Shown here: piece by piece, positions 1-16,933 of the stretch | Numbering within the stretch: the stretch's first letter is position 1 | Layout of the letters: the number at the start of each line of letters is the position of its first letter | From: Sanguinoderma infundibulare | Lineage: Eukaryota; Basidiomycota; Agaricomycetes; Polyporales; Polyporaceae | Direction of reading: 5' to 3' | DNA: 64,000 nucleotides | Assembly: GCA_032821775.1 (NCBI GenBank) | Contig: JAVLRN010000003.1 | Location: 3,968,001 to 4,032,000, forward strand | Program-made: the position numbers and the translations under genes | Notes under the pieces: model-generated | Seen by the model: the letters and a program-made list of their open reading frames with translations, nothing else | What the model was told of the DNA's origin: nothing | The model's database searches: none

Positions 1-990
1 GAAGGGTGTTTTGCGTGCATGGAGGGTTGAGTCCCAGTCTGCAGAGCATCAACCAGGTGAGTTTCATCATACTCGTATTCGACCACCGCGCCCCTGGACC
101 CCTCAACCCATCGTACGCCCAGATACGCACGATTGACGGGGAGCAGGAGGTGCCGCACGATGGGGCAATCTGCAACCTATGATGGTCAGACCCTGACAGT
201 ACATCATGTTCTCTTCCGTCCCTGCATCTCCATCTTGTTCTCCCTTCGGACCCTGACCGACGGTCGATGTGGGGCAGACCTTACCGGTTGGGGGCTCTCC
301 CTGCGTAGCTGGCCGAGTTCAACGTCACCGTTGTCTTCCGGAAAGGCGACAAGAGGAAGAGCCGGGAATCGTCTGACGGTCCGACGAACATGTTCTCGAT
401 GCTCAGCGGGAACCCGGAGAATACTGCGGAGGTCACAGGCAAGTCGAGCCGTCTCCCGAGCAGGAAGCGCTTTACTGATCTTGGACCTAGTGGTGCTCCC
501 CAGGGCAGCGCTCCCCAGCGGAGAAGGCTCCAGCTGCTGCCTCGCACGGTTCCCCTGGACAACAAGTCAGAGTCTACCCCTGCTGCACCTACGGTCAACT
601 CCGAGGGCGAGGGCGAGGGCGAGGGCGAGGAAGAGCCGTCTGGCACGCCATCGACATCTGAGTCTGAGGCCAAGACGTGTATCATGGAGGACTTGAAGGC
701 ATTCTTCTCGATTCGTGATCTCGAGGAGGCAGAGGTGTACTTCACGAAGCTCCCGACAGAACACCGACATCTGCTGGTCGACAAGGGCGATCGAGTCGAA
801 GCAGGCGGACGCTCAGCTCATCGCGGACCTCTTCGGTCTTGCCATCGCTCGAATTCTGTGCTCACCAGCATCGTTCGAGGAGGGCTTCACGCGGATGGCG
901 GAGGTTATAGACGACGTCGTCGACGCGCCAAAGGCATCAGCTGACCTGGTAGGCTTCTTCGAAGCAGGGGTCATTGTGGGGAAAGCTTAA
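1..990 (+). pseudogene. eIF4G C-terminal fragment (decayed)
   Basis: A remnant of translation initiation factor eIF4G, covering only the linker and the start of the MA3 domain. From about 320 the frame reads a basic linker, NMFSMLSGNPE, PQRRRLQLLPRTVP, an acidic Gly-Glu run (about 600-640) and then the MA3-like helices EDLKAFFSIRDLEEAEVYFTK and LPTEHRHLLVDK. After VDK (about 785) the homology continues in another frame (IESKQADAQLIADLF), so there is a frameshift or small deletion. Homology fades at about 960. The MIF4G domain is absent, so this cannot replace the host factor. The assignment rests on my recognition of the conserved linker and MA3 motifs. It lies on the same strand as, and just upstream of, the TET/JBP gene. 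Confidence 0.7.
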
Positions 991-1216
991 ATTTCGGTGT
1001 CGGGACTCATCGGGGTAGATCTAGTATGACTAGTAGGTATCACAACTGCTCTGTATGTGTACTGGTAGGGTTACAAGCTACGGCCCCATATTGTATGGGC
1101 GCCCCAGGCCTTCCATTTTAGGAAATGTTGGAGGGACCTGCGAATTTCTGAACAGCGCACCCCTCGCAACCTAACGCCCACGCCGCCACTTTTTGGCACC
1201 ACGTCGTGCCCTCGCA

Positions 1217-4200
1217 ATGGAGGTAAGTTGTAAGCCGGCCTTATCATGTACTCATATTGACTATACTATATCCAACTGGAACCCAGAGTTACACATTGGA
1301 CGAAGAAGAGATTCGTGTTCTTAGGGTGCACCTCAGCAGCTCCCCAGACCTGGCTCACCAGCCAGTTCTGCAACGCCTACTGCATGCTTGGGGAGGGCCC
1401 TTAGGTGCCTAACTTCATTCTAAGAAATATTCTGCACTTATCGTTGATCAGACTTAGCCCCTAGGCCTGAGGAGGCGCAGGAGGACATGTCCATGCAGGT
1501 GACGGCTACGTCAGGCCAGTGTATTCCCCTTTGGCTGACAGAAAGCGCAGGATGTGTTCCAGCAACCTGTGAGTACAGTCTTGCGACTTTTTGCTTTTAC
1601 TTAGACAGCCTGAACTTAGGAACCTGTCGCCCAGCACACAGCGAGGGGAGAGGTCACCACTGAATTTTCTGGACCCCCTCAACGCGGTACGAAGCGCAAG
1701 AAGAACGACGTATCCAGGACAGGGATCCCTCATACCTCTCTCCCTGGCACTGAGAACGTATGGGCCTCTTCGAACGCTAATCCCAATGCTGCGGCGCAAG
1801 TGCCTGCCCTTCAGGCTAAGGCGACCTCGAGCAACACGAGGAACTCCAAGCCTAGAAGAAGACCACCCTGTGCCCGAGGCGGTGTGGCTTGGGAGCCTCC
1901 CATGAAGAGGACGAGGAGCAATGCAGAAGCCGCTGACAATGAAGAGGAGGATACTGTAAGGGTCAGATGGAACGTGGTGGCGGCGGATGGCGACCGAATC
2001 ATACCTGCACGTGACAAAGAGGCCGACGACATGCTCTTTAAGCTGTTGTCTGGTAAGACTGGTCACCTGGATGACCCTTCATGCCAGCGTTGGGTAAATC
2101 GTTTGGTCGAGGTGGTGGCTGACTGCTCCATGCTGGGTCGCGCCTTCCAGTGTGACACTCTGGAGACTCTCATGCAGCGAGTGCAGGGCATTCAAGGTGT
2201 AGGCAGCGCAGTATCTTTTACCCAGATGATAACCTGCGTTCAGCTGGTGATCAAGGCTGAGAGGTAGGTCTCTGCGTGTGCTATAACTATTACCGGTCTA
2301 ACGTCCATACCCTGGTAGCGTCTGTGCTGCCCAGAATATCAAATGGCAGGACTTGCACCATCACCTGCTTCAAGCCTACCCTGGAGCTACTCCACAGGAA
2401 GAAGAATTCGATAAATGGATGGCATGGGGGAGGAAGTACGTCACCCTGGCCGCCGGAGGTACGTGGTACAGGTACCACCTGTTTGTACTTTGTCACAAAT
2501 CGTTCTGTTATACAGGATCTGTATATTTTTTGCTTGTGGTCGCAGGACACAGTCAAATGTCATCGGTCAAACTTCTCCCTCGCAAGAGCATACGTGCCCT
2601 GAGTCACTACCTTCGTCAGCCCCAAGGTTAGCGCCCCGTCTTCGCCGTATTTTTTTCCACTAACTGAGAGGGGCAGGTGCTGGGGATCAAAACCGCGCAC
2701 TAATCTGTGATCGGCTTTTCCCCTTGCTACGGGAGTTTGGCCGTCGAGCTCCTCTCACTTTGGCCAACCTCTTTAGCACGGAACAGCTTGAGCAAAACTC
2801 CCTTCCAGAGACGATCACGTGCTCCAACCTTCAGCAGAGCGACAGGTTATGGGAGCAAATACCGATGCGGTAAGTATGCCCTCATAACGCTCTGGAATAT
2901 ATCAAGTGCCTTACTTTCCCATGCAACTAGGGACTTCATGCCTATCGATAGAGACTGGTCCCTCTGGGATCCTGTTTTTACAGCTCTGTCTCTAGAATCC
3001 AGCGGCCTACCTTGGGTCTCTCAGCCTTTGGCTGGACTGCAAAGGCGCATGCTTCTTCCTGGTCTAGGCAGCTCTCGGGCTTCGTCCAATCAGTCAACGC
3101 CGACTCTAAGCGAGCTCACACTTCTAACGCCCTCGTCGACCTCTCCTAGTCTATCTATCCCCCCGCTGGCCTTGGACTTCTCTGGTCGAGACCTGCCTGG
3201 ATTCGACTTTTCAGACGAGAACGACCTCATCCAAAGGGCAGAGGCTGCTGCCAGTGAGGTCACAGACTTGGAGGCCCTGCCTCCCCTCATTACGGTGCCT
3301 GTCGCTGTGAACCTAGGCCATCCGCACAACAACGTTCCTCTACCGCCAGTGGGTGAGGAACGTATGACATGGACATCGGCAGAACAACAATTTGCTGCCC
3401 AAGCTTACGTCCCAGCTGACCTGGAAGATCTCAAGGCGCAGGTAGGCTTTAGGGTGGTCTAGACCTGTACACGTAACCATTTACCATTTCTGCCTTCTAG
3501 CTCGCAGATAAACTGTTTGACGCTGACGGTGTCAAAGCCAAGGGCCGCTACCTAAGAGTTCCCGAAAGCGTAATTGATAAGTGCGTTCTGTTCCCGCGCA
3601 TGCCTGTTTGTTAGTTACTGAACAAACGCAGTCAAAGAGTGGCGTTCACCTCCGTCGACGGCTCCTTGCTGGCATTCGTCGTTGGTGATATCCCAAAGCG
3701 CATTGCCAACAACCTGGAGAAGAACCTGGAGAGCGCATTTGCAGCTGTGGAAGCTGACCATCCAGGAAGTGTTCTTCTTCATGTGGAGCATTCAATGCAT
3801 GACCAGACCTTTGAGAGTACTCATTGGAACACCTGGGCACGATGTGGTGCTCAGGTACGTCTCTGCCTACCTTGCCATGGCACTTAGGGTTTGACGCTAT
3901 GCCAACCCAGGGTGATGACGCGCCAACAGACGTCCATCCACAGCAGATGAAGCAGGCAAAACGCACCAACTATGGCCAATTCGTGCCCTACCCATCCAAG
4001 GATATTACGTCTTATCCAGAGCTATATCAGAAGTTGAGCCAGGCGTTCTCGGAATTCTTCGGTGAGATGAAACAGCGCGTAAGTATTGTGGGCTTTAAGA
4101 CCTCTGCAGTTGAGGCTCTGCAGCTAACTACCTTTGTATACGTCGCAGCTGAGGGCGCACTTCCCTGACCTTGTGGACAAGATCCAGTGCTATGCCAGTG

Positions 4201-4541
4201 CACTTCCAGGATACGAGAGCAGTCCTGCGAAGCCCTTCTCTGGCTTCATTGTTAATCTCAACGTTTCCACACGCGGTCATCGGGACAGGAAGGACCTCGA
4301 AGCATGCGTGGTCCTTCCAGTGGGCACCTTCACTGGTGGAGAACTGGCGCTTCAGGAGCTTGGCCTGGTGGTTCCTCTTCGATGCGGAGACTTCATTTTC
4401 TTCCTCTCCCATCGCATCACTCACTTCAATCTTCCCTACTCTGGAACTAGAGCGTCCCTGGTGTGCCATTCTGATAGAGAGGGAATGAAGTGGGTACGCA
4501 ACTGCATGGGCTGGGATAACAATGCCTACATGAGAGCTTAG
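1217..4541 (+). CDS. TET/JBP-family 2-oxoglutarate/Fe(II) dioxygenase
   Basis: Predicted nuclear oxygenase that would hydroxylate 5-methylcytosine or a related base in DNA, using 2-oxoglutarate, O2 and Fe(II). The last exon (4149-4541) carries the fungal TET/JBP signature: HRD metal motif at 4278-4286, a GG turn, GDFIFF, ITHFN with the distal His at 4422-4424, then GTRASLVCHSD with the 2-oxoglutarate-binding Arg at 4449-4451. All key residues are present. My model has about 12 exons and about 860 residues: ATG GAG at 1217 then an intron, exon from 1287 (SYTLDEEEIRVLRVHL), an uncertain small exon near 1470-1498, a long basic exon from 1620 to about 2264, and exons near 2319-2458, 2546-2627, 2678-2870, 2932-3438, 3501-3579, 3631-3854, 3912-4079 and 4149-4541. 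Frames join without stops from 1620 onward, so it looks intact. The N-terminal 700 residues match no domain I know. Next to a KDZ transposase. Confidence 0.82.
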
Positions 4542-4982
4542 CTACCCTTGTAGTTTGTTTATCCCTTTATCCCACTGGACACGTATCATCGCTGTTAATT
4601 GAAGAGGATACTTGAAATGACTGAAAGGGTGAGGGAAGAGAGACACGTCGCGATGCACGAGGGGAGGCACGTGCTGGAAATTAGATCGGGGAATGCCCGC
4701 AACTCGGCTTTCGGCAACAGACAGGCTAGCGCTTGCTCACTTGTGTACCACGGATACGGTTCTGACATTCATGGTGAGATGGTCTAGCTTTTCTGTGCAA
4801 AAAGGGCTGAATTCAGCGTCAGTGATCCGGAACAGCGGTCTCCACGCAGGTTCGCACAAGCATTCCTCAAGGTTGTCCCCATCCCGCAATGAATCAATCC
4901 CCTCACCGAACCAGGCTGAGCTAAACGTATAAAGGCATCCCAACTGCGTGGACTCCCATTGTACGCCTTCCATTTCCTCACG
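4542..4982. other. intergenic spacer, nothing recognised
   Basis: 441 bp between the TET/JBP stop and the first ATG of the viroplasmin-domain model. It should hold the 3' end of one gene and the promoter of the next. No repeat or gene seen. Confidence 0.5.
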
Positions 4983-6138
4983 ATGACGGTCAGCGATAGT
5001 GCAGTGGACGACGACGGTCACGGTACGCACGACCACAAAGGCCTTGGCCCTCAACCTGTTCCTCATCACACAGTTGTTGAGCTTCTAGAGCTCATACTCC
5101 GCCTCATAATCTGTCTCGTATGCAATGACTGCTGTAAGTGATCTCATACCCCTCCATCTATCCATTTTGACATAGGTACCAGTCAACGATTCTCGGGCTC
5201 GGCCATCTGTCTGCACGCACTGCTTATGGATGGCTCTCAATCGTAAGTTTGCTTCCCTTTTGGTAGCATCAAGGCTTCTGCTGGAGATTCACGCTACTCG
5301 CAGAACCTCAGTGTCCGCATGGCACCTTCAGAGATACCCATCCGCGTCCAACCTCATCCCATGACCAGGGGCCTCTTGCTGTCGAATCAAACGTGCGTAA
5401 CGGTAACGGCCGAACAACTCCTGCTCCCCATCATGGCACCTCTTTCTAGGTAGTCGTGTCTCTGTCATTTGGCTCGTCGTTGAGTGTCGCTACATCCTGA
5501 CTGACAGGGTTCTGACTTCAAGGCTTCTATTCATCCCATTGGGCATCAAGGATCCCCTTCGACGCCTTCTCAAAAGCATTCTTGTCCTTGGAACCACAAT
5601 CATAGTTCTGAGGAGAGTGCTGCTCGCTGCACTTCTCGTGTGAGTACATCGTGGGTCATTGACGCACCTCAGCCCCGCACTCGTGAACGTGCTTTCGCCC
5701 TAAGCTCAGCCAGTGCTTCGCCTTCCATTTCGTCTCACGTGAATCCGCAAGTTCAGTCTTGCTCCGACGCCGACGCCGACGCCACCGCCACAGACACCAC
5801 CACCGTCCCTGAGGTGACGCGAACTCCCCAACCTGTCTCCCTACCCTCATATTCAGCCCATATGGACAAATACAATGCCTCCACGAATGTCTGGTACCTT
5901 GTCACCGTTGGCACACGCGTCGGTGTCTTCCATCACCTGTGAGTATAGTCCGACCTCCGATTCAAATATGCAGCTGTCTCATTCTCCCAACGCAGGTTTG
6001 AAGCACACTGCTCGACTAATAGCGTGCCAGGACAGAGCTTTCATCGCTACACATCATATGATGAAGCTGTCCAGGATTTCCATAACGCAGAGGCCATGGG
6101 GGCTGTCATTCAGAAGGCACGATCGATAGATATGTAGC
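4983..6138 (+). CDS. protein with C-terminal viroplasmin-like / RNase H1 N-terminal domain
   Basis: The C-terminus matches the small nucleic-acid-binding fold shared by eukaryotic RNase H1 N-termini and the caulimovirus viroplasmin family (Caulimo_VI): WYLVTVGTRVGVFHHL at about 5890-5940, a 58-bp intron, then FEAHCSTNSVPGQSFHRY and a YDEAV helix ending at the TAG of 6138. Such domains bind RNA/DNA hybrid or dsRNA and are expanded in basidiomycetes. The region before it (about 5510-5880) is rich in Ser, Pro and His and includes a Asp-Ala run. The start is uncertain. ATG 4983 opens a short Asp/His-rich exon ending CNDC, and exons near 5176-5239 and 5310-5450 are plausible but their joins are not all in phase. 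No RNase H catalytic domain is present. It sits between the TET/JBP and KDZ genes on the same strand. Confidence 0.6.
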
Positions 6139-6738
6139 GGTACTGATGCCTTACTTGGGCGGTATATATTTTCTTGGAGATTCCCATTGACGTGACACGC
6201 GCGTACCCTGCTTGGAATCCGAAGTTGCATGACTCGTATCCAGACTGGTCCATCCTAATATATCTACCACATTTCATCGTTCCAACATTGGGGGTGATAT
6301 AATTGACATTTGCGAGACCTTGTTGTCAGTGGATGGCCTAGTCAGTGATTAGCCGAGCGATTCTCCGACGTCCGCTACCCCTTCAAATCGACAGGCTGTT
6401 GCGAAGCCTTATGGAAGCCCGCGAAGAGTACAGTTTTTGGCTAATTGGTACTATTAATGGTGATCTCGTCATGATCTTACGTGGGTTCCTTCACGTCGGG
6501 TCCAACTTTGAGAACGTTTACACTGCTGAAGTGGTGCTCGGTTCCCTCATTCCAAGAGGATTTCCGCATCAAAAATACCTCGTTGTGTTGTTTCATATAG
6601 TCGAACGATTTTTTCGCTCTTCCCAGCACTCTTCCTCGGCGCTGCTACCATGGGGGTCTCAGCGACTCTCGTGCACCTCCTCACCAATCTCTCCCTCCCA
6701 TTCAGTACCGCGAAACATTCCAAATTTCACGGAAACAA
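6139..6738. other. intergenic spacer, nothing recognised
   Basis: 600 bp between the viroplasmin-domain gene and the KDZ gene. AT-rich in places, including ggtatatatt at about 6160. No gene supported. An alternative upstream ATG for KDZ lies at 6650. Confidence 0.4.
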
Positions 6739-9700
6739 TATGGGCTCCTTCTCTCGTGATGGCAGCTACGGTGAGCGCAAGCTCCCAAGTTCCCCAAAGG
6801 CCACCATTCGCACCCTTACCGACAGTGGTACAACTGTCGCCTTTAGTTCTGCGTCCCTCAAAAGCCGGCTCCACCCTACATCTCCGTCGGCACCGACCAC
6901 GGTCACAACTTTGCTTGACGTCTCGGCTGAACCCTTGGCAACGGGCCACAACACCAACCATATCTACAATTATTTGTCTTCGGTAGAGTCAGACTTGCTT
7001 GTCCATGCCCGCATTGCGGCGGTGAGTTCAATTTCATAATCCGCATCTGAAATCGTATTCATTTATCACAGGAAACATCTGTCCAACAATGGCGAGAGCA
7101 CAACGACAACTATGTCGCTGAGCTCATGCGACTGGATGGGCGAGGCCACTTCGTCAGTAACAAGTGCGGTGGCTGTCGTGAGGTTCTCCCTGGCGGTGTT
7201 GGCCTCCGATGCGATGACTGCTTCGATCGGGCACTATATTGCTTGGGGTGCTGCTTGGCGATCCATACGCGTCACCCACTTCATCGCGTTCAGGTTCGTG
7301 TTCACGGATTCAGAACGTGTTGATGACATGCCAAATGACTGTATTTAACTTTCAGCGGTGGACGGGGAACCGGTTTCAGACCGAGGAGCTCAGTCTGCTC
7401 GGCCTGCGTTTCCAGTTGGGACATGACCTTGACGGGAAGTGTCCTCACCCCCATGTCTCCCTTTCTGGTCCCATCGTCGTGCTCGACCTGTCGGGCATTC
7501 GCGAAGTCATGGTTATGTTCTGTAGCTGTGAGGGCGCTGCTTCACCGTCTCTTCAGCTGCTCCGCCAGCGCTGGTTCCCCGCAACCGCCACGGCTCCCTG
7601 CACTGTGGTGATGTTTCGCCTCCTTGAACACTTCCATGCACTGTCTGCTCTGTCGAGCATATCTATCTTGGGCTACTACCGCTCCTTGCTCCTCGTCACC
7701 CACAGTACCGGTGTTAACGCTTCGATGGTGTGTCATTACCTTCTTCTTTTTCAACATTACTATACTCACACACCTGCGTAGAACCAACTGACTGCTTTTC
7801 TTACCATGATGAGACAATGGCAACTCTTGAAGGGGTTGAAGAGGTCTGGGACACAGAAGGACCCCGACGGTGTTGCTGCAACTCTGGAAGGCCGCGAAGA
7901 CGCACCCCATGATCATAGCGAGGTATCTCCCAAGCACAGGTTCGTCTTGAGTTCGCCGTGATAGTCCAACCCTGATATATCGCGATACAGCCGGCTGCGC
8001 CATTTCTCTCGGACTCCGGACTCCAATGCCCCGAAGCGCAAACTCTTCGATGGAGAACACGGTAACCGAGGCCCTAATCTTCCATCTGGGAGGGACGGAG
8101 GTTAGGAGTTTGCAAAATCACGTCATGCGCGATCACGCTTACTGACGTGCTTTCTCAGGCCTGATGACCATCGCATGTCCCCACCATGAGGTGTGCGCTT
8201 GCGCAGTAGAGACTGGGAGGTATGTCAGCCGATCGTGTCGACTACATATCTTTGTTATCGTTCACCTATTCCGCCACCCTACAGCGACTCCGCATTTCCT
8301 TCGAGCGTGCTTCTTCCTGATCTCGTATACGACTGTGAAGACCCGGATGGTAACTGTCAAGAACTATCTCGCGTCGCCGACTTCTCTCGCCAGCGCAACG
8401 CCATGGACGTTGTATGGGGAACCCCGACCATCCCGATTGACGGAGGCTGGGGCGAGGATGTCCTTGAACATACCCTTAGATGTTGGAACTGGACCAAGGT
8501 CACCATGCTGCGTACGTTTCGTTTAGTCCAAATTTGATGCTGTAGTTGTGACCTGAACCGCATGCAGCCATGACTCTTCTTATGGACGCCGAACACGCCG
8601 TCTCCCAGCGTCGGTTATACGACAAGGTTTTCCATGTTCTTACCGAGTGCGTTCCTTCCCGCCATGCGGAGTCGTGGCGGGAAATGATAGCAACGTGGGA
8701 GACGGAGGGCAAGACGGCTACCAACCCCTTTGAGACAACATGTAGTCGTGCGTATACTTGTCTTAGGCACCATGGCCCGGTCTCACGAGTGTTACTGCAG
8801 ACTTAACCCAGAAGACCGTTCGTCTTGAGCTATACCAGCGGGATCTGAAGGCGATCCATTGCGGCGAGGCTACGTTTGGGTCTCCCAGTGGGGAGACAGC
8901 CAGCGAGATCATCGCTATGGGACTAGATCTCGAAGACGAGCAGTAAGTTATTCTTAGCTATAGCAGTTAAGTCGTTTCTCAATCCCATCGTACCTAGACG
9001 ACGGCTGCGTGCTGCTTTGGCCGGGTCAGAATCCCAGTCTGTCGACCTCCATTGGGTGAGGCTCGTGGAGGATCAGGGCCGCCTGCAACACCGAATTAAC
9101 GTGTGGCACGACCTTGTGCAGCACCTCATGCCCATCGTCGCGTCACTGCAAACGAAACCCGCCTTCAATGCTATCTCGGCCTCCCAGGATTTGCCACTAT
9201 TTTTCCCCTCAGTCGTTTTTTCCGAATCACACCTCCCCAACAATCTCCTCGAATTCGAATGGCGCATGTGGGAGGCCCAGGCCTTTGATGCTCTCGCTTA
9301 TCTTCGCGATCATATTCAGGTCACCAAGTACATCCGCGCATGTGCCTATAGGTATCCCAACATGGAAGGGAAGGCGAGGCGTACCAACCTGGTTGCCGAC
9401 ATTGTCCAGGCAAAAATGGGGATGGACGTAGCTCGTTACCGTGGCACCTACGCTGGCCTTAGAAAGCTCGCCGCTGCTCTCGGCAAGACCATCGTATATC
9501 TCGAAGAGTTGAGGGACAGCGACGTGCGTGGCATTCCAAAGGCTGATGGGAGTGCCAGCGAACTTGACGTGTCATGGATCTGGCGCTTTTGCCGAACTGG
9601 GGTCCTGGATCAATCTAAGCTGCTGGATATTCGTGCCAATGGGGACTTGAACGACGGTACGTCATTTAGCTTGTCGCGGCTGCGCTTGTGCATTAATAAC

Positions 9701-10073
9701 ATTCTTTGCAGCCTTGCGCGTTGAGTGGTGCGAGGCTCGCGCTCAGGCATTCACCAGCACGAAGAAGTGCAAATTGCTTCACGACGAAATGTGTCGTATC
9801 GTCAAGCACCATCAGCGACGTGAGCACTGGTGGGAGCAGCAGGTAGGCCGCCACTTTGAGGACCAACCGGATTATTCTGAGGGGGTCGACTCCTATGCCA
9901 ACTGACAGGCCTTCACCCGTCTTTCTATGAAGGAACACTGCCTCAGCTTGTGGGCCTCGATGAAGCACTGTTTGTCTGGTCGTCAGCGTGACAGTGGCGA
10001 CTCGTTGGAGAGCTTCCCGTCGTATGACAAAGAAGGTTACGTGGATGTTGTTCGGACCGCAGGGGCGGAATGA
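6739..10073 (+). pseudogene. KDZ transposase with CxC2 cysteine cluster, catalytic core eroded
   Basis: N-terminal exons are well preserved: 6739-7021 (Ser/Thr-rich), 7072-7293 with the CxC2 zinc cluster (CGGC, then CDDC, then CLGC and HTRHPLHRV), 7356-7727 (LGLRFQLGHD, VVLDLSGI, QLLRQRWFPAT, FRLLEHFHAL) and 7782-7922 (MMRQWQLLKGLKRSG, LEGRED). The C-terminal half is also preserved: WNWTKV near 8490, WREMIATWETEG near 8680, GLDLEDEQRRLRAAL near 8930-9010, a long coiled helical exon to 9656, then VEWCEARAQAF and a final exon ending in TGA at 10073. Between 7923 and 8460, where the RNase H-fold DDE core of about 350-400 residues should be, there are only fragments: CPHHE near 8170 in place of a C-x-R-H motif, and LQRLRISFERA near 8290 where YDIAC is expected, followed by a stop. 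I infer a deletion that removed the core. Whether transcripts still make a binding protein is open. Confidence 0.8.
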
Positions 10074-11084
10074 TCCCAACGTGCTTAGCTAAAATCACCA
10101 TCGTCTCTGATGCATCCTTCGGGCCCTCATCGCTTACATGTCAAGTTCTTGTCGACTCCGAGCAGGATGTATTTGTACGTACGTGTGTATGGGAATGGAC
10201 GAGAATAATGCGTCAAATCCGCGGAGCCCACACGAGCGCTTTCAGAGAGGCAGTGCTCATGCCCCCGTTTCTTCTCCTTGCTAACGCGGTCACCTCCGAT
10301 ACTATACTTCCTGCGCTTTCTCTAAGGTAGGGGGCTCTTGTGGTGTTATGAATCAAAGGTGGCCAACTGGACTGACAACGAGGTTCGATGTCAAGTCTAT
10401 GGGTGTAACGTTACGTGGCGTTCACATGTTAACGCGATTCGTCGTCTGTGGTATCCTCCGTTCGGCCACGGATGTAACTTTCAAGGTAAGACAATTCACA
10501 TAACGAGTTGCTGTGCCTTCCCCAAGATCGAACCAACTGACTGTTGACTGGAAGACGACTCACCTGTCCAAAGGCATACCCCTGCGAATTAATGTGGTTG
10601 GGAATGAATCGCGTGCTTATCTTTGATGTTTGTAGGCCGGTCGCATTTTGTCCCCAGGCTGTTAGTTAATCAAGTGAGCTGTACATTTTATCTCTGGCTC
10701 TTGTCATCTAAATGGATGGGTGTAGAGCTCTCGCAGATGTGTTACGGCTCCTTGCTGTCTGGAAAAAAGAGAAGCATCCGTCTCTGATGCCGCCACTGTT
10801 CGCAAGATGTCTGCCCTCATGGCATATTGACCTCCCTGTTATAGCAGTCGGGTGCGATCTCGCATATACCCGCGTTTGACCAAATGCTCAATGGTACCCC
10901 GGGATTCTAGCGCGTGCTTCGGGGAGCGGCCTTGTCACCCCTCTCTTGGTCGTCTCCCGTTTCTGCTCCATGCTGCAAATTTCTGCGTTGTCGTGTTCAA
11001 CTCACCTGTTTCAACCAGTATAAGCTTATGGTGCGTTCATTGCAGAGCTGTTCTATTTCTACTGCTTGACCTGATTTCTCGCAG
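10074..11084. other. intergenic / unresolved 5' part of the next gene
   Basis: About 1 kb without a supportable gene. The first exons of the repeat-rich gene probably lie here (a splice acceptor gcag at 11081-11084 precedes its first clear exon), but I could not fix a start codon. A 14-base string at about 10523 (gaaccaactgactg) also occurs in KDZ exon 4 at 7781, probably by chance or a small duplication. Confidence 0.35.
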
Positions 11085-14000
11085 TCTGAACAAGGTTCAA
11101 GCATTCCTGGTCAGGTGCCAGAGGCGCACTCTAGCCCGACACGTCCGCAACATGGCTCCAAAAACCGAAAGTGGCATCTAAACGCACCCGCTACATCCAC
11201 TCATGATATGCACTTGAGGGGGCGTTCCAAGGCACCTGACTCCACGAATGTTCCGCCTGCGCCAACCCTTGTCCCTGGCATCCAGATTCCACCCCCACTC
11301 CAGCGGGGCGGGCGGAGGCGCAAGGCTAACGCGTCCGCTGTCAAAGTAGAAGGTGCAATTTATTTTTGGAGTAATTGTCTTCTTGGTGTGACATCGAGTT
11401 CTGTAGATGCTGTAGGGTCCTGTGACGGTGGATGTGGTGGAGCGTCTACGGCAAGATCAAGTGCGACCTCCCTGCTGGCCAGCTCTGAGGATCTGGCAAC
11501 TCGAACACAAGCAACCACTCCTCTGTCTACCATCCCTCCCGTGGGAGCCATGGTTGGACGGCAGGTTGGTAGCAGCTCAATCAGGATGACGCGTTGTGAG
11601 TCTCGTTTTTTGTCTTGTCTGCTACACATTGTGTTTGATGTTGGGAACGCACAGCACCGTCGTCGCCCCTATGTATTCCTGGGATGGGTCCGCCGCCTGC
11701 CTCTGCGCATGTAGAAAGCCCCACTGTGACTCCTGAAAGCGTCCTTGGTCTAAACACCGGTGTAATTGGCCACCGTTCCTCCAATGGAGGTGCTGCAAAG
11801 GAGAGCGGGGACATGGATGGTGGTCGAGGCGTGGACCTCAGTCACGTGGGCATTAGCCGGGACGTTACACTTCCGCCGTTGGCGTGGCTGCCTGCTGAAT
11901 TGTCCCATCTCCGTGGTGATGGGTAAGTTGTTTGAACTTCTCTTGTAATGGCGGTTTGACTTACTTGGGCGATCACACTTGAAGATGCGTGGATGATGTG
12001 GCAGGTGTCAGCGAGGATGGTCGCGCTCACGGCAGTGCGGAGAGCGAGGCGAAGGGTGTCTCAGGTGTTCAGATAGAGAGTCTTACTGAAGGTTCGTATT
12101 GTTAGTGGCATTCATGGGAGATTTTTGGCTAACCAACCTGTACATACCTAGGTCCAGATATCAGCCTCGCAGACTGTCATGCGAACGATCGTGAAAACTG
12201 TCGCGCAAACGGTCGCGCAAATGGTCACGCAAATGGCAGCGCAAACGGCAGCACGAACGGTAGCGCGAACGGTAGCGCGGATGGTAGCGCGAATGGTAGC
12301 GCGGATGGTAGCGCGAATGGTAGCGCGGATGGTAGCGCGAATGGTCGCGCGGACGGCAGCGCGAATGGTCGCGCGGACGGTGGCGCGAACGGTAGTGCGG
12401 ACAGTAGTGCGGACGGTAGCTTAAATGGTAGACCGGAGGGTTTCTTGGAGTTCCAGTTTCCAGTGGAAGGTTGGAGTGAAGGTTCATTTGGCACATAGCC
12501 TTAGCAGGCAATCCATGGCTAACAAGCCTGTACATCCTTAGGTTATAAGAGCGGGTGTGCCGAAGGGGGCGCTGCCGGTCGCGTCGATGGCCGCGCTGAA
12601 GGGGGCGTCGATGGCCGTGCTGAAGGGGGCGCTGCCGGTCGCGCTGAAGGGGGCGCTGCCGGTCGCGCTGAAGAGGGCGCTGCCGGTCGCGCCGATGGTT
12701 GCGTCGATGGCCGCGCTGAAGGGGGCGCTGCCGGTCGCGCCGACGGTTGCGTCGATGGCCGCGCTGAAGGGGGCGCTGCCGGTCTCGCCGACGGTCGCAT
12801 CGATGGCCGCGCTGAAGGCCGCACCGACGATCACGCTGACGGTCGCGCTGACAGTCGTAGCAATGCCTCCAAGCAGAGGTTCTCAGAGTCTACGCAGTCA
12901 TGGGACCTTGATTCAAATGATGGACAGGACAATGACCAGAAGGCTGTTGGCCGCATATCGGATGCAAACATTGCCACCATCAATCAAGCATTTAGCACAG
13001 TTCATAACCTTGCAAAGGATGTGGCGTTGAAGACCGGCTTGCATGTATCCCAAGTTCTCGACCTCTGGAACTCGACCACTCAGCGTACTCACGTCAAGTT
13101 GAATCTATGGAACCTGTATGGCGCCTACTTCAAGGACCATCAAAAGGAAGAACTAGCACGTCTCCAAGATTGTAAGTATTCCTGTATGTTGTATAACAGG
13201 GCACTTTCTCAATTATGGCATTCTTTTATAGCTGAACCGCGTAAGTTCCCGCAATACGGTATGTGAAAGAGACATCGCATTAATTGACAAAACCTCAGAT
13301 AATGCCATCGACGTTCACCTTCATCGGAGATGCTACCAAGCGTTTCTGGAAGTGTATGGCGAAGAAGATGCCAAGACGTTGTTGGGGAACCATCGAAGGT
13401 TGCAAATGGTCCAAGGCAGCCAGACGGCTGGCGAACATAAAAGCTCGTTCAGGAAAGCCGCGGGCAAGCTGTCAGAACTCGTAAGTCGTGGTGGTGATAG
13501 CATGTATATGGCTTCTCATGCATAGTGGCTGTACAGCTGAATACGTACGAGTCCATGTATGGCTTTAGTGGCATAGTCACCCTTGTTGGCAATAATCCCA
13601 ATTCCGATGGTGGGCTCGCCACCGTGCATGAGACGAAGGACGCGACTGGCATAAGTAATCAAAGCTAATCGTTTGCGATTTGTCCGATCAACTCATCTTT
13701 TGCAGTTCTTCGAGATGCGGTGTCGCACAGATCGAGACGGCGTCCTCTCGCATCTTAAGGCACACATTTAGTAAGTCTATCTGTCGCCCCATCCCCCTAC
13801 GTTCTTTTCAAGTCCTAACCAACGTGTTACATAGTCATAATGGCTCCTTGGATCGCGTCGAGAAGGCCTTCGACGCGAGTTGCACTGAGGGTTCGCGCGC
13901 AATCCAGATAGCCGATGACTTCGCGTGTGGATACGCTAGCAAGCGGGTCGAGGCGCGGGCTGCCGGTTCTTCCAAAGTGACGCGAACGACCAAAGAGCAG

Positions 14001-15894
14001 GATCTTCCGAGTCTCAAGACACTTCTGGCGTTTGATCAGAAGGAACTAGCTTCGTGGTGTTCCGAACACCTCCTCAAGGAGCTGAGTATGTGTGATATTC
14101 CTAGGATGTTCAAATGCGTCTTGTAGCTAACCATCATTGCGCGTTCCAGATGGTTTGGGAATTCCGGGTGACAAGTTCAAGAAGCTCCCCTGGAAGTCGG
14201 CCAGGCCCACATTTGTGAGCAGGAAGGTCCACTGGCACAACTGGCCGGAAGCTGTGCCTTTACCACCGATCGCCGTGCCTAAAGGCGATAAATTGAACCG
14301 ACGGATCGCGAGGAGCATTCACAACCTCCTGCGCAACAACTTGAATTTCCTTGTCCATGGGATTTTAGACACAGAGCATCCCCTAGGCTTTGAGCGGCTC
14401 GACGACACCATTGTGGAAGGCGAGCATTTCCTTGAACCTTTACAGGCGTTTCACTAACGCAGTGCGCTTTGCGTTGTAGGGATGGATGACGGGATTGAGG
14501 CTGTTGTTTTGGGCGCGCCACCAGAGCACACCTCTTCGCACTTATGTGGTCGTCGCCTGTTCATCGATGGTCGTGTGGACCGCTTGGGTCCGGCACGTAA
14601 ACGACGGCCTGCCGGCTATGACTCGGACGAAGACCAAGACCATTCTGACGGTGGCAATGACAGCAGCGGCGCCCAACGTCTTGACGGTGCGCACACTACC
14701 TTAGGGAAGAGGGATAAGGGGAAGGAGAAGGAGAGGGAGAGGGAGAAGGAGAGGGAGAAGGGGAAGGGGAAGGGGAAGGGGAAGGGGAAGGGGAAGGAGA
14801 AGGAGAAGGCCAGGAGGAAGAGGAACGTAACCGCTGACACATCTGAGACCAAAAACTCGTCGGACGATTACTCCTCTGACTCGGACGTTTCCCATTCGGA
14901 CGGTCGGGCTCACCAGCAAAAGAAGCAATGGGACACCTTGTTCCGTCCGTTGACTGTTCCCATCCGGACTTCACCCGTTATGGCGAAGTCGAGACCACGC
15001 CAGGAGTACATGGAGATCTCGGACGATGAACCAACCCCACAGCCCCAATCTTGGAACAACCAGGCTGCGCCATCTGGCAGTCCGAAGCCGAAGCCCGTTT
15101 TCAAAAGAAAAATCCAACTTTTGGAGACATCCTTGGGATCAACTGGAGCTTCGTCGTCGAAGGAGATGTTGAAGGAGCACCCTGGCGATCCTGGCATCAA
15201 CCGACCTAACAAGCAGTCCCGCACCCTTGAGCCCCAACACCCAACACCACTACTTGGTCAGGATACCACTGGAGGACCGCGTTCCAAGGATGCATCTACG
15301 GGCCACCCGAACTACCACGCAGACTACCCCGCAGACTACCGCACGGACTATAGCGCGGACGATCGCGCGGACGGTTGCGGGGACGGTCGCGGGGACGGTT
15401 GCGGGGACGGTCACGCAGACGATCGTGAGAACGGTCACGCAGACGATCGCTTGGGCTTGAGCGCTACAGTGCAAGAGCCAGGCATGCCTGGGCCTTCCAT
15501 TAACCCTGCCTTTCAGGAAGGAGGCTACGGTCTGCAAGTCGCAGCTCCCCCGGCACACAACCACCCCGCGCTCAACGGCAGACACCAGGATGGAACCCAT
15601 CACCTGTGGAACAGCGTCCCTCACTGCCGGTTCACAGGAGCATACATGTATGGTCCTCCTATCATACAGCACACTCCGAACGCTCCTCCCTACATGCCTC
15701 ACAATATCACAGCAGGCTCGAGCGTACCATTAATATATTATCCCACAACGCCTATCCAGGCCCACGTGCAGCCCCCGGCAGGAACACAACTCGGCCAACC
15801 TCCGCCACCGCCGCCCATGCCACCCTCGACACCCATCCATCCATATATGCAACTACCACCCGCTGCTAGCCATCCATCTGTACCTGAGATGTAG
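11085..15894 (+). CDS. large repeat-rich protein of the KDZ block, unknown function
   Basis: Multi-exon gene, start unknown. Visible exons: 11085-11351 (Pro/Ser/Thr-rich, GGRRRK), about 11420-11588, 11656-11921, 12012-12091, 12154-12481 and 12542-13171, the last two holding tandem Ala/Gly repeats, followed by a non-repetitive helical stretch (NLAKDVALKTGL, LWNSTTQR, LNLWNLYGAYFKDHQKEEL). Further exons run through 13200-14130, then 14150-14419 and the last exon 14480-15894. The last exon includes a Lys/Glu run (14710-14820), acidic and nuclear-localisation-like basic stretches, a third Ala-Asp-Gly repeat block and a Pro-rich tail. Frames stay open across repeats when introns are removed, which argues for selection. 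I do not recognise a domain. I infer a nuclear, partly disordered partner of the transposon, and the helical core resembles proteins I associate with basidiomycete repeats, but without a firm family name. A GC..AG intron is inferred at 14420-14479. Confidence 0.55.
12179..12440 (+). repeat. 12-bp coding repeat, Ala-Asn/Asp-Gly-Ser type
   Basis: About twenty degenerate copies of a 12-base unit such as gcgaatggtagc / gcggatggtagc. In the gene frame it encodes A-N-G-S and A-D-G-S alternately. Several wrong frames are also open because the unit lacks stops. Lies inside an exon of the repeat-rich gene. Confidence 0.85.
12550..12860 (+). repeat. Ala/Glu/Gly/Arg coding tandem repeat
   Basis: Tandem copies built from gggggcgctgccggtcgc and gcgtcgatggccgcgctg. 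In the gene frame they read as AEGGAAGR and VDGR/ADGC units. Follows the first repeat block after a short intron, in the same reading frame of the repeat-rich gene. Confidence 0.85.
14708..14820 (+). repeat. purine-rich gagaag/gggaag run (Lys/Glu/Arg/Gly)
   Basis: Strand-asymmetric purine tract of 6-base units in the last exon of the repeat-rich gene, coding KEKERERE then KGKGKG. Such tracts can slip in replication or form triplex DNA. Confidence 0.8.
15300..15450 (+). repeat. Ala-Asp-Gly/Tyr coding repeat in the last exon
   Basis: Third repeat block in the gene: 12-base units encoding ADYP, ADDR, DGCG, DGRG and HADDRENG. It is related in unit size and in the Asp-Gly core to the blocks at 12.2 and 12.6 kb. 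Confidence 0.75.
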
Positions 15895-16933
15895 TATTCA
15901 TGTCGTTATTTGTGTCTCCAAATGTGGTGATACTTTGGTCAATTGTCATGCGAATGTTTCATGTCTTGCTGTAGCACTGAATGATGCAAACTCTTTTGAA
16001 GCTGATTAATTGTAGCTTTCGTTGTTCAGAGAAATAACCCTCAATGAATGTGTGTCATCCATCATCGGAAAATTCGCCGCAATAACAACAGCTATATCGA
16101 CATCGCAAGCTCGGGCTAACGGTCGTGCGGACAGTGTTGTGGACCCACGCAAGGAACTAATTCTGGACAGGCTATTTTTCGGGCGTGCGGATGGCCGCGC
16201 TAACAGATGGTCGTGCTAACGGTCGTGCGGACGGTCGCGCTAACGGTCGTGCGGACGGTCGCGCTAACGGTCGTGCGGACAGTGTCGGAGGAAGCAATTC
16301 TGGACAGACTATTTTTGGGCTACAGGGAGAGCGAACAACTGGGTGGGAGGTCTCTTTGACTAGTTTCACACGGCACTGGAAGGAGTCTTAGAGAGGCGTC
16401 AGGGTCCTGCCTGGGGTGCAATATACGGTCACCGGCGCGATGCTAGGCGAAGTGCGGCGAGCCGCATTTCGAAAGGCGCCACCGCGTCATGACATCACTA
16501 CGTCTCGTTGATTCTATCGCTCAGAATTGAAGTCCACCGAACGGGGGCGTCGGTCATGGAGTCCCTCGACCGCCTGGCATCGCTGATACCGCGATCCGAT
16601 GACGCCGCACACGAAACCAGGTAAAGGACTGACAGAATCCAGCCCAATGCAGTGCGCAGCGGCGGACAGTCAGATGAAAACGGATGCCCAGTTGGCGCAG
16701 CTCCCCAATTCTAGCACTCGTGCTGCCAATGACGGGCAGTCCGCGGTGCGTTCTTGCTTTTCAAGACACGCCGAACGGCTCGGATGTAAGCAGATTCGGT
16801 AACTGCAATATGCCCGCAATCATAGCCGCCAGCATTCAAACACTTCATAAACGAGACACCCGCATGCCGAAGGTAACAGTCAAGATCCTCCTCGCAGTCC
16901 TCTCTCACCGACCCAAAGCCAGCTACCCATCAT
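15895..16933. other. intergenic between the KDZ block and terpene synthase 1
   Basis: Holds the 16.1 kb repeat, annotated separately, and the 5' region of terpene synthase 1. The last 330 bp share segments with the DNA upstream of terpene synthase 2 (for example ctcgcagtcctc close to each start), so the promoter was duplicated with the gene. No other gene seen. Confidence 0.5.
16112..16325 (+). repeat. 24-bp tandem repeat outside any gene, matching the coding repeats
   Basis: Repeats of gctaacggtcgtgcggac with gtcgc linkers, for example at 16201-16281. A flanking segment is also duplicated: aattctggacaggctatttt near 16157 and aattctggacagactatttt near 16297. The unit is the same alternating (gct aac ggt cgt)(gcg gac ggt cgc) pattern that codes the Ala-Asn-Gly / Ala-Asp-Gly blocks of the repeat-rich gene, but no gene covers it here. 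Confidence 0.75.

Follow-up and report, generated by a model that had tools for sequence, protein, structure and literature searches.

The 64,000-base window analysed here (C3:3968001-4032000), from the polypore Sanguinoderma infundibulare, carries towards its left edge a row of four plus-strand genes which encode, in order, a TET/JBP dioxygenase, a viroplasmin-like protein, a protein with a CxC2 zinc cluster and a repeat-rich protein (Table 1), the order and strand that the first-pass annotation of this DNA had given. That annotation had suggested that the block between 1.2 and 15.9 kb is a composite element made up of these four genes. In our analysis the block instead makes up the right half of a DNA transposon of the KDZ superfamily, here called element A, whose ends and target duplications enclose 33-35 kb; the four genes were thus the wrong unit, since the catalytic transposase lies far to the left and the KDZ-like gene of the block reads as a relic. 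Window positions are written with a prefixed w, and negative values lie left of the window. The genome searched comprised 48.9 Mb in 87 contigs, the copies of the element are named after their contigs (C3 for the window's own copy, and C2, C4, C6, C10, C12 and C18), and genome-wide match counts are lower bounds, the best candidates having been scored.

Table 1. Features of element A in the window, with the adjoining target duplication.
Feature	Position	Strand	Basis and remarks
Right part of transposon A	1..16418		Homology end in C2, C10, C12, C18; continues left to w-40439, includes element B
Captured, decayed PP2A-type phosphatase catalytic-subunit gene, 3' part	1..450	+	PF00149; starts at ~w-640; right limit approximate
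TET/JBP dioxygenase gene	3049..4541	+	Exons 3049-3441, 3501-3580, 3632-3854, 3911-4078, 4149-4541; predicted 418 aa; PF12851
Viroplasmin (RNase H1 N-terminal)-like gene	5862..6137	+	Exons 5862-5938, 5996-6137; predicted 72 aa; PF01693
Putative relic of second KDZ-type gene	7108..9721	+	CxC2 zinc cluster 7389-7712; 8570-9658 resembles (by eye) post-KDZ part; KDZ domain not found
Repeat-rich gene, several exons, function unassigned	12133..15891	+	Genome matches limited to the seven element A copies
12/24/48-bp tandem arrays	12203..12857		Repeat analysis
Further 12/24-bp repeat array	15311..15450		Repeat analysis
Subterminal 12/24/36-bp repeat array	16180..16280		~140 bases from right end
Right terminal inverted repeat CACCCCAGGCAGGACCCTGA (read end inwards)	16399..16418	-	Pairs with left end CACCTAAGGCAGGTCCC, 14/17 first bases
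Target-site duplication CAATATAC	16419..16426		Same 8 bases directly outside left end

Boundaries and copies of element A

A 3-kb piece of the block was found at seven places, one of them its own; the matches number eight, the C6 copy being split. Both ends were found for all seven copies, each of which is bounded by imperfect inverted repeats (CACC...GGTG) and by target duplications of 7-8 bp; these are the further copies, terminal repeats and duplications for which the first-pass annotation had proposed a search. At the right end, the homology common to the window, C2, C10, C12 and C18 stops at w16418/16419, an identical boundary shared by copies that lie at different sites. The right-end 20-mer has nine exact occurrences, all of them with identical terminal bases after which flank begins, and it is found at four more places with 3 differing bases (the reversed-pattern control gave 3); in C4 the sequence shared at this end reaches only ~45 bases inwards before other sequence starts. 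The left end was located with stepwise 80-base probes in two copies (to ~1.1 kb) and then with a 1,120-base piece in all seven. In the own copy it lies at C3:3927561 (w-40439), 40.4 kb left of the window, a distance that includes a 23.6-kb insertion: this copy is interrupted at w-15930 and resumes 23.6 kb further left, and the other six are continuous past that point. A first placement of the left end coincided with the edge of this nested sequence, element B, and was dropped because the other copies share sequence beyond it. The left terminus CACCTAAGGCAGGTCCC and the inverted right terminus CACCCCAGGCAGGACCC agree in 14 of their first 17 bases. The target duplication measures 8 bp in six of the seven copies (CAATATAC in the own copy; TGCTCATC, CTTCCAGG, GACGGTAT, CAATGGGA and GACGTCCG in the others) and 7 bp in C12 (GCGGCGG).

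Measured end to end, the copies on C2, C10, C12 and C18 are 33,854, 34,238, 33,644 and 34,592 bases long, respectively. The own copy reaches 56,858 bases with element B inside, and the C6 and C4 copies ~87.9 kb and ~141.5 kb, the excess coming from later insertions. Divergence between copies, measured over w-5.0 to 12.4 kb (17.4 kb per pair), amounts to 0.34-0.44% among the four young copies (C2, C10, C12 and C18) and to 1.2% between these and the own copy; against the five younger copies it is 3.8-4.3% for C4 and 4.6-5.0% for C6. The four young copies differ by 0-2 transversions per pair, which points to recent movement of the element. The left part was aligned to the own copy for C12, and in the other copies it was judged from ends, lengths and gene matches. 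In the two old copies, at C4:1024669-1166143 and C6:777514-865437, the matching target duplications stand 141 kb and 88 kb apart, which shows that later insertions are deeply nested within these copies.

The TET/JBP, CxC2, repeat-rich and transposase genes occur at the same seven loci, and the exons of the viroplasmin-like gene are present in all seven aligned copies. From these shared loci we deduced that the genes travel together as a 33-35 kb unit, so that the co-mobility supposed in the first-pass annotation holds, with the TET gene also occurring outside the unit. What that annotation had named as refuting joint movement was found in part: relatives of the element A TET stand at loci that lack the element A transposase and repeat-rich gene (C2:3252, C2:1015, C13:639 and C4:966, with 92, 84, 76 and 48% identity over the best stretch, and three weaker matches), while the repeat-rich gene is confined to the seven copies.

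Transposase, relic gene and nested element

The transposase gene of element A stands beyond the window, close to the left end of the element, and encodes a CxC1-like cluster (22.7 bits, under the cut-off of 26.9), a KDZ domain (PF18758, at C3:3952929-3953626 and likewise towards the left end in each of the other six copies) and an Ulp1-type protease. From w-15239 to w-11900, across KDZ and Ulp1, it is co-linear with the KDZ-Ulp1 protein P0017, and its CxC1 end is co-linear with P0013; the closest relatives, CxC1-KDZ-Ulp1 transposases of the Agaricomycetes from Trametes pubescens, Ganoderma sinense and Dichomitus squalens, are 62-67% identical. The Ulp1 stretch retains H, D and C motifs, which we take to be typical of the protease. 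This KDZ-Ulp1 transposase was found at the seven element A loci, all other genome matches being at most 37% identical, and the spacing between KDZ and TET is 18.6 kb in the own copy, C2, C10 and C18, and 18.5 kb in C12.

The third gene of the block had been called a KDZ transposase in the first-pass annotation. Its CxC2 cluster is plain (PF18803, 100.8 bits) and present in all seven copies, but the rest of such a transposase did not come to light: among 87 genome-wide PF18758 matches at E<=0.001 none falls in this gene, a Pfam scan at E<=1 found nothing in the three plus-strand frames of w7700-8601, and comparison of the region with 120 KDZ proteins, a CxC1-type set that makes for a mild test, gave weak matches, with a best E of 0.002 in the zinc cluster and of 0.009 outside it among the best 25 matches. 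We therefore read the gene as a relic, in which neither a KDZ domain nor a trace of selection can be recognised.

Element B (w-39498..-15931, C3:3928502-3952069, ~23.6 kb) is nested in the own-copy transposase gene of element A and carries Tet_JBP, CxC2 and KDZ of its own on one strand. Its right 4 kb has several further genome matches, up to 98% identical. Two readings of its borders are equally possible, one giving CA...TG ends and the 7-bp duplication TTACAAT, the other the 8-bp duplication TTACAATC. Because a query with the element A TET did not reach the TET of element B at E<=0.001, the two TETs are far apart.

CpG-biased decay of the copies

How do the copies of element A differ from one another? 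Among singletons, CpG C>T changes account for 82 of 93 in the own copy, 17 of 19 in C12, 19 of 21 in C18, 331 of 408 in C4 and 402 of 514 in C6. Transitions outnumber transversions by 200:8 between the own copy and C10, by 994:20 between C4 and C6, and by 65:0 between C10 and C18, and CpG transitions, counted without polarisation, make up 165 of the 208 differences in the first of these pairs and 585 of the 1014 in the second. Two host terpene synthase paralogues, an older and partly coding pair, gave 115:86, with CpG transitions at 20 of 201 differences. The ratio of observed to expected CpG is 0.75-1.04 in four element pieces of the window, against 1.03-1.24 in five host pieces. After the boundaries of the element, this mutation pattern is the strongest of our results, and it was probably caused by methylation followed by deamination. 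Most Agaricomycotina are described as using a DNMT1-class CpG methyltransferase (review, PMC13297926), and CpG hypermutation of transposons is reported in Tricholoma matsutake, an earlier report having found it absent from Agaricomycotina (PMC6980582).

The fraction of ancestral CpG changed in C4 and C6 varies with context (ACG 0.50, CCG 0.39, GCG 0.37 and TCG 0.28). Such a 5'-A preference is a pattern like that of repeat-induced point mutation, unlike the TCG preference cited for Puccinia and Microbotryum in Kojima 2025 (PMC12730594).

The TET/JBP gene

The five-exon TET/JBP model, with exons placed by eye and an uncertain start codon, scores 39.1 bits against PF12851 (Tet_JBP; curated cut-off 34.9) and contains the motifs HRD, ITHFN and GTRASLV, which bears out both the identity and the motifs given in the first-pass annotation. 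The R of GTRASLV is presumably the residue that binds 2-oxoglutarate. HRD, THFN and GTRASLV are shared with homologue P0001, which itself scores below the Tet_JBP cut-off (17.4), and homologues occur in Ganoderma and Fomitopsis, P0001 being from G. adspersum and P0002 from F. betulina. The roles of the HxD and H residues in TET/JBP proteins follow Kojima 2025 (PMC12730594).

The model is free of stops and gaps in five of the seven copies (own, C2, C10, C12 and C18); C4 has one stop and C6 has two. The ratio of nonsynonymous to synonymous substitution (dN/dS) is 0.17-0.39 for the TET model and 0.4-2.6 for the relic exons, and the two genes differ in their synonymous against nonsynonymous changes (p=2.3e-4, from rounded counts and two independent comparisons). 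Open frames taken arbitrarily from the middle of the element gave pooled dN/dS values of 0.22-1.83, and a count restricted to CpG transitions was therefore adopted; dN/dS by open frame was too noisy for calling genes, and a comparison of the KDZ gene between two copies was without power. By the CpG-only count, changes in the five stop-free copies affected 13 of the 62 synonymous sites and 6 of the 89 nonsynonymous ones (p=0.015), and the control ratios were 1.17 for the relic and 1.10 and 0.88 for two intergenic (untranslated) frames. We hold with moderate confidence that the TET gene has been under purifying selection.

Of the 29 Tet_JBP matches in the genome, 16 have a KDZ match within 2.5 kb, 7 belong to the element A copies and 6 stand at least 11 kb away; for this placement, 82 of the 87 PF18758 matches were used and merged into 56 places, the five weakest, all adjoining listed ones, being omitted. 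A TET next to a CxC2-KDZ gene is the usual arrangement in this genome. Two TETs related to that of element A (84% and 37%; C2:1014784-1027505 and C5:64058-76601) lie 10-11 kb upstream of a CxC2-KDZ gene on the same strand and perhaps mark further large elements.

Interpretation and alternatives

How might these features be connected? We consider it likely that element A is a recently mobile giant KDZ transposon with a selected TET gene, a relic, pieces of host genes and copies attacked at CpG, in which the TET probably counters silencing. The CxC1-KDZ-Ulp1 transposase at the left end would move the whole unit by way of the short inverted ends, and insertion would duplicate 8 bp at the target. 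Copies would then be attacked at CpG, through methylation followed by deamination, and the TET would oxidise 5-methylcytosine on the element DNA, which may lower silencing, mutation or both for long enough to allow transposition. The idea in the first-pass annotation that the element edits 5-methylcytosine to control its own silencing would be compatible both with selection on the TET, for which the evidence is moderate, and with the CpG decay of the copies, for which it is strong. What was a vague gene neighbourhood is now a mobile unit with known limits, present in a single genome as seven copies that differ stepwise in age, and a KDZ element can evidently exceed 30 kb and hold host-gene pieces. 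The question of why transposons carry TET also becomes directly testable, the gene being intact in some copies and interrupted by stops in others, with CpG decaying in all.

Several observations weigh against this reading. The TET-bearing copies are still CpG-mutated, so that any protection by TET would be incomplete or temporary, and CpG C>T changes make up 9 of 16 singletons in C2 and 10 of 16 in C10. With all seven copies included, the CpG-only test of the TET gene gave 37 of 62 against 36 of 89 changed sites (p=0.061), exons 4-5 alone gave p=0.38, and a dN/dS near 0.4 by itself proves little, because arbitrary frames span the range given above. Comparison of the TET protein with solved structures produced chance-level matches and reached no TET structure, and AlphaFold gave no usable prediction from an alignment of four sequences with P0001 at its head (mean pLDDT, the predicted local distance difference test score, 32.7). 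Over the 139-residue stretch compared (query 442-580), the transposase has a stop in C12 and in C6 and none in the other five copies, and the own-copy gene is broken by element B inside its CxC1 region. The case as a whole is built on sequence, from which we infer activity, methylation and transposition.

Might the block be a smaller element, or the copies something other than transpositions? TET followed by CxC2 on one strand is also the order of the compact TET-CxC2-KDZ units elsewhere in the genome, and the block could be thought a complete compact TET-bearing Kyakuja element, in which TET adjoins CxC2-KDZ; however, no KDZ domain was recognised in it and the ends with target duplications enclose 33-35 kb, and we regard this explanation as very improbable. 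Segmental duplication as the origin of the copies would be extremely improbable, since the seven copies have seven different flanks with matching duplications at both ends, even though duplication or double assembly does occur in this genome: two further right ends, at C4:4212412 and C67:9544, have one common flank, which suggests a duplicated or doubly assembled region.

The part assigned to TET is open to two further explanations. One holds that the gene is a passenger of no use to the element, comparable with the captured phosphatase (PP2A) and esterase (GDSL) pieces. Such DNA is indeed retained, as these pieces and the CxC2 relic attest, and the stops in C4 and C6, together with the results for all copies and for exons 4-5, are what a passenger would lead one to expect; nevertheless, the model is open in all five younger copies, nonsynonymous CpG changes there are rarer than synonymous ones, the contrast with the relic is marked, and most TET matches in the genome either adjoin a KDZ match or belong to element A, so that we judge a passenger unlikely. 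The other would have the CpG decay be ordinary slow deamination of methylated CpG, without active hypermutation and unrelated to TET. This sits uneasily with the lack of any transversion between C10 and C18 and with the state of C4, where 331 CpG changes at 2,600 CpG positions stand against 9 transversion singletons in ~17 kb, a contrast steeper than in methylated animal genomes. It does agree with the spread of decay over the aligned 17 kb, without a sharp cluster (changed ancestral CpG per kb 0.30-0.51 in C4 before the break at w11.6 kb, and 0.37-0.59 in C6), and with the near restriction of CpG methylation to transposons described for Agaricus bisporus (PMC12730594), and we regard it as a serious possibility, if somewhat short of even.

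Taking element A as a giant transposon whose TET probably counters silencing, we can speculate further, in a scenario that we find possible but doubtful. A class of giant, gene-capturing KDZ elements may exist in wood-decay basidiomycetes, and element A may have swallowed its TET together with an older TET-bearing CxC2-KDZ element, the transposase of which died while the TET was kept against CpG methylation and CpG hypermutation. If so, element A would preserve an intermediate stage at which a counter-silencing gene was passing from one transposon lineage to another, and it would carry cargo in the manner of a Starship, but outside Ascomycota.

Relation to known elements

TET-bearing transposons are established in fungi, Kyakuja and Zisupton being among those of Agaricomycetes; as far as the available part of Kojima 2025 (PMC12730594) extends, TET-bearing Zisupton come from Auriculariales and Agaricales, and those of Polyporales are Kyakuja only. 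Element A belongs to the KDZ superfamily by the KDZ domain inside the unit and by defined ends with target duplication in seven of seven copies. It resembles TET-bearing Zisupton, as described there, in combining a KDZ transposase and TET/JBP in one unit that has terminal inverted repeats and, in six of seven copies, 8-bp duplications, and it differs from them in that its nearest relatives are polypores. With TET-bearing Kyakuja it shares CA...TG ends, but the families described in that source lack inverted repeats and duplicate 7 bp, in contrast to the mostly 8-bp duplications and imperfect inverted repeat of element A, whose KDZ gene moreover has the CxC1-like cluster and Ulp1 and lies at a distance from TET. 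Element B is closer to Kyakuja if its borders are read as CA...TG with TTACAAT.

Like the Starships of Pezizomycotina, as described in PMC12134995, element A is a large unit carrying genes unneeded for transposition; unlike them, it has a KDZ transposase and inverted ends, and its recognisable host-gene cargo looks decayed. No tyrosine-recombinase domain was found in the frames scanned of element A, a scan that excluded the minus frames of the outer parts and ~0.6 kb near the left end. Nor was a giant TET-bearing KDZ element found in the literature searched, namely titles and the openings of abstracts, with subscription papers and the data files of Kojima 2025 outside the search. Transposons with TET and KDZ being already known, what is new here is apparently the large size, the detachment of TET, the presence of a relic and the capture of host-gene pieces.

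Other genes and repeats

The viroplasmin domain reported in the first-pass annotation is present, although its score is marginal (PF01693, 21.2 bits against a cut-off of 21). The gene has no stop in six of the seven copies, and its CpG-only test gave p=0.23. A genome search with PF01693 (7 matches) missed the element A gene, exon by exon, and is uninformative on linkage. The repeat-rich gene lived up to its description, containing 12/24/48-bp arrays; of the 7997 candidates scored, none was homologous to it at E<=0.001. Near the left end, at w-15399..-15256, stands an array that the one at 12254-12397 matches in inverted orientation (78%). Counting motifs of the 12-bp repeats was uninformative.

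Left of the window, the transposase is followed by minus-strand open frames, one of them weakly kinase-like, and then by the GDSL and PP2A pieces, both within the stretch common to all seven aligned copies. For one PP2A piece the matches are to catalytic subunit chains of PP2A (best 6.9e-20), and the decayed GDSL esterase gene (w-2431..-1477; PF00657, 31.8 bits for the joined piece) has a visible frame break. No match at E<=0.01 came from a whole-frame Pfam scan of the window in plus-strand frames 1 and 2. To the right of the insertion site, at ~0.5-1 kb and 2.8 kb, lie the two tandem terpene synthase paralogues (PF19086; w16877-20149).

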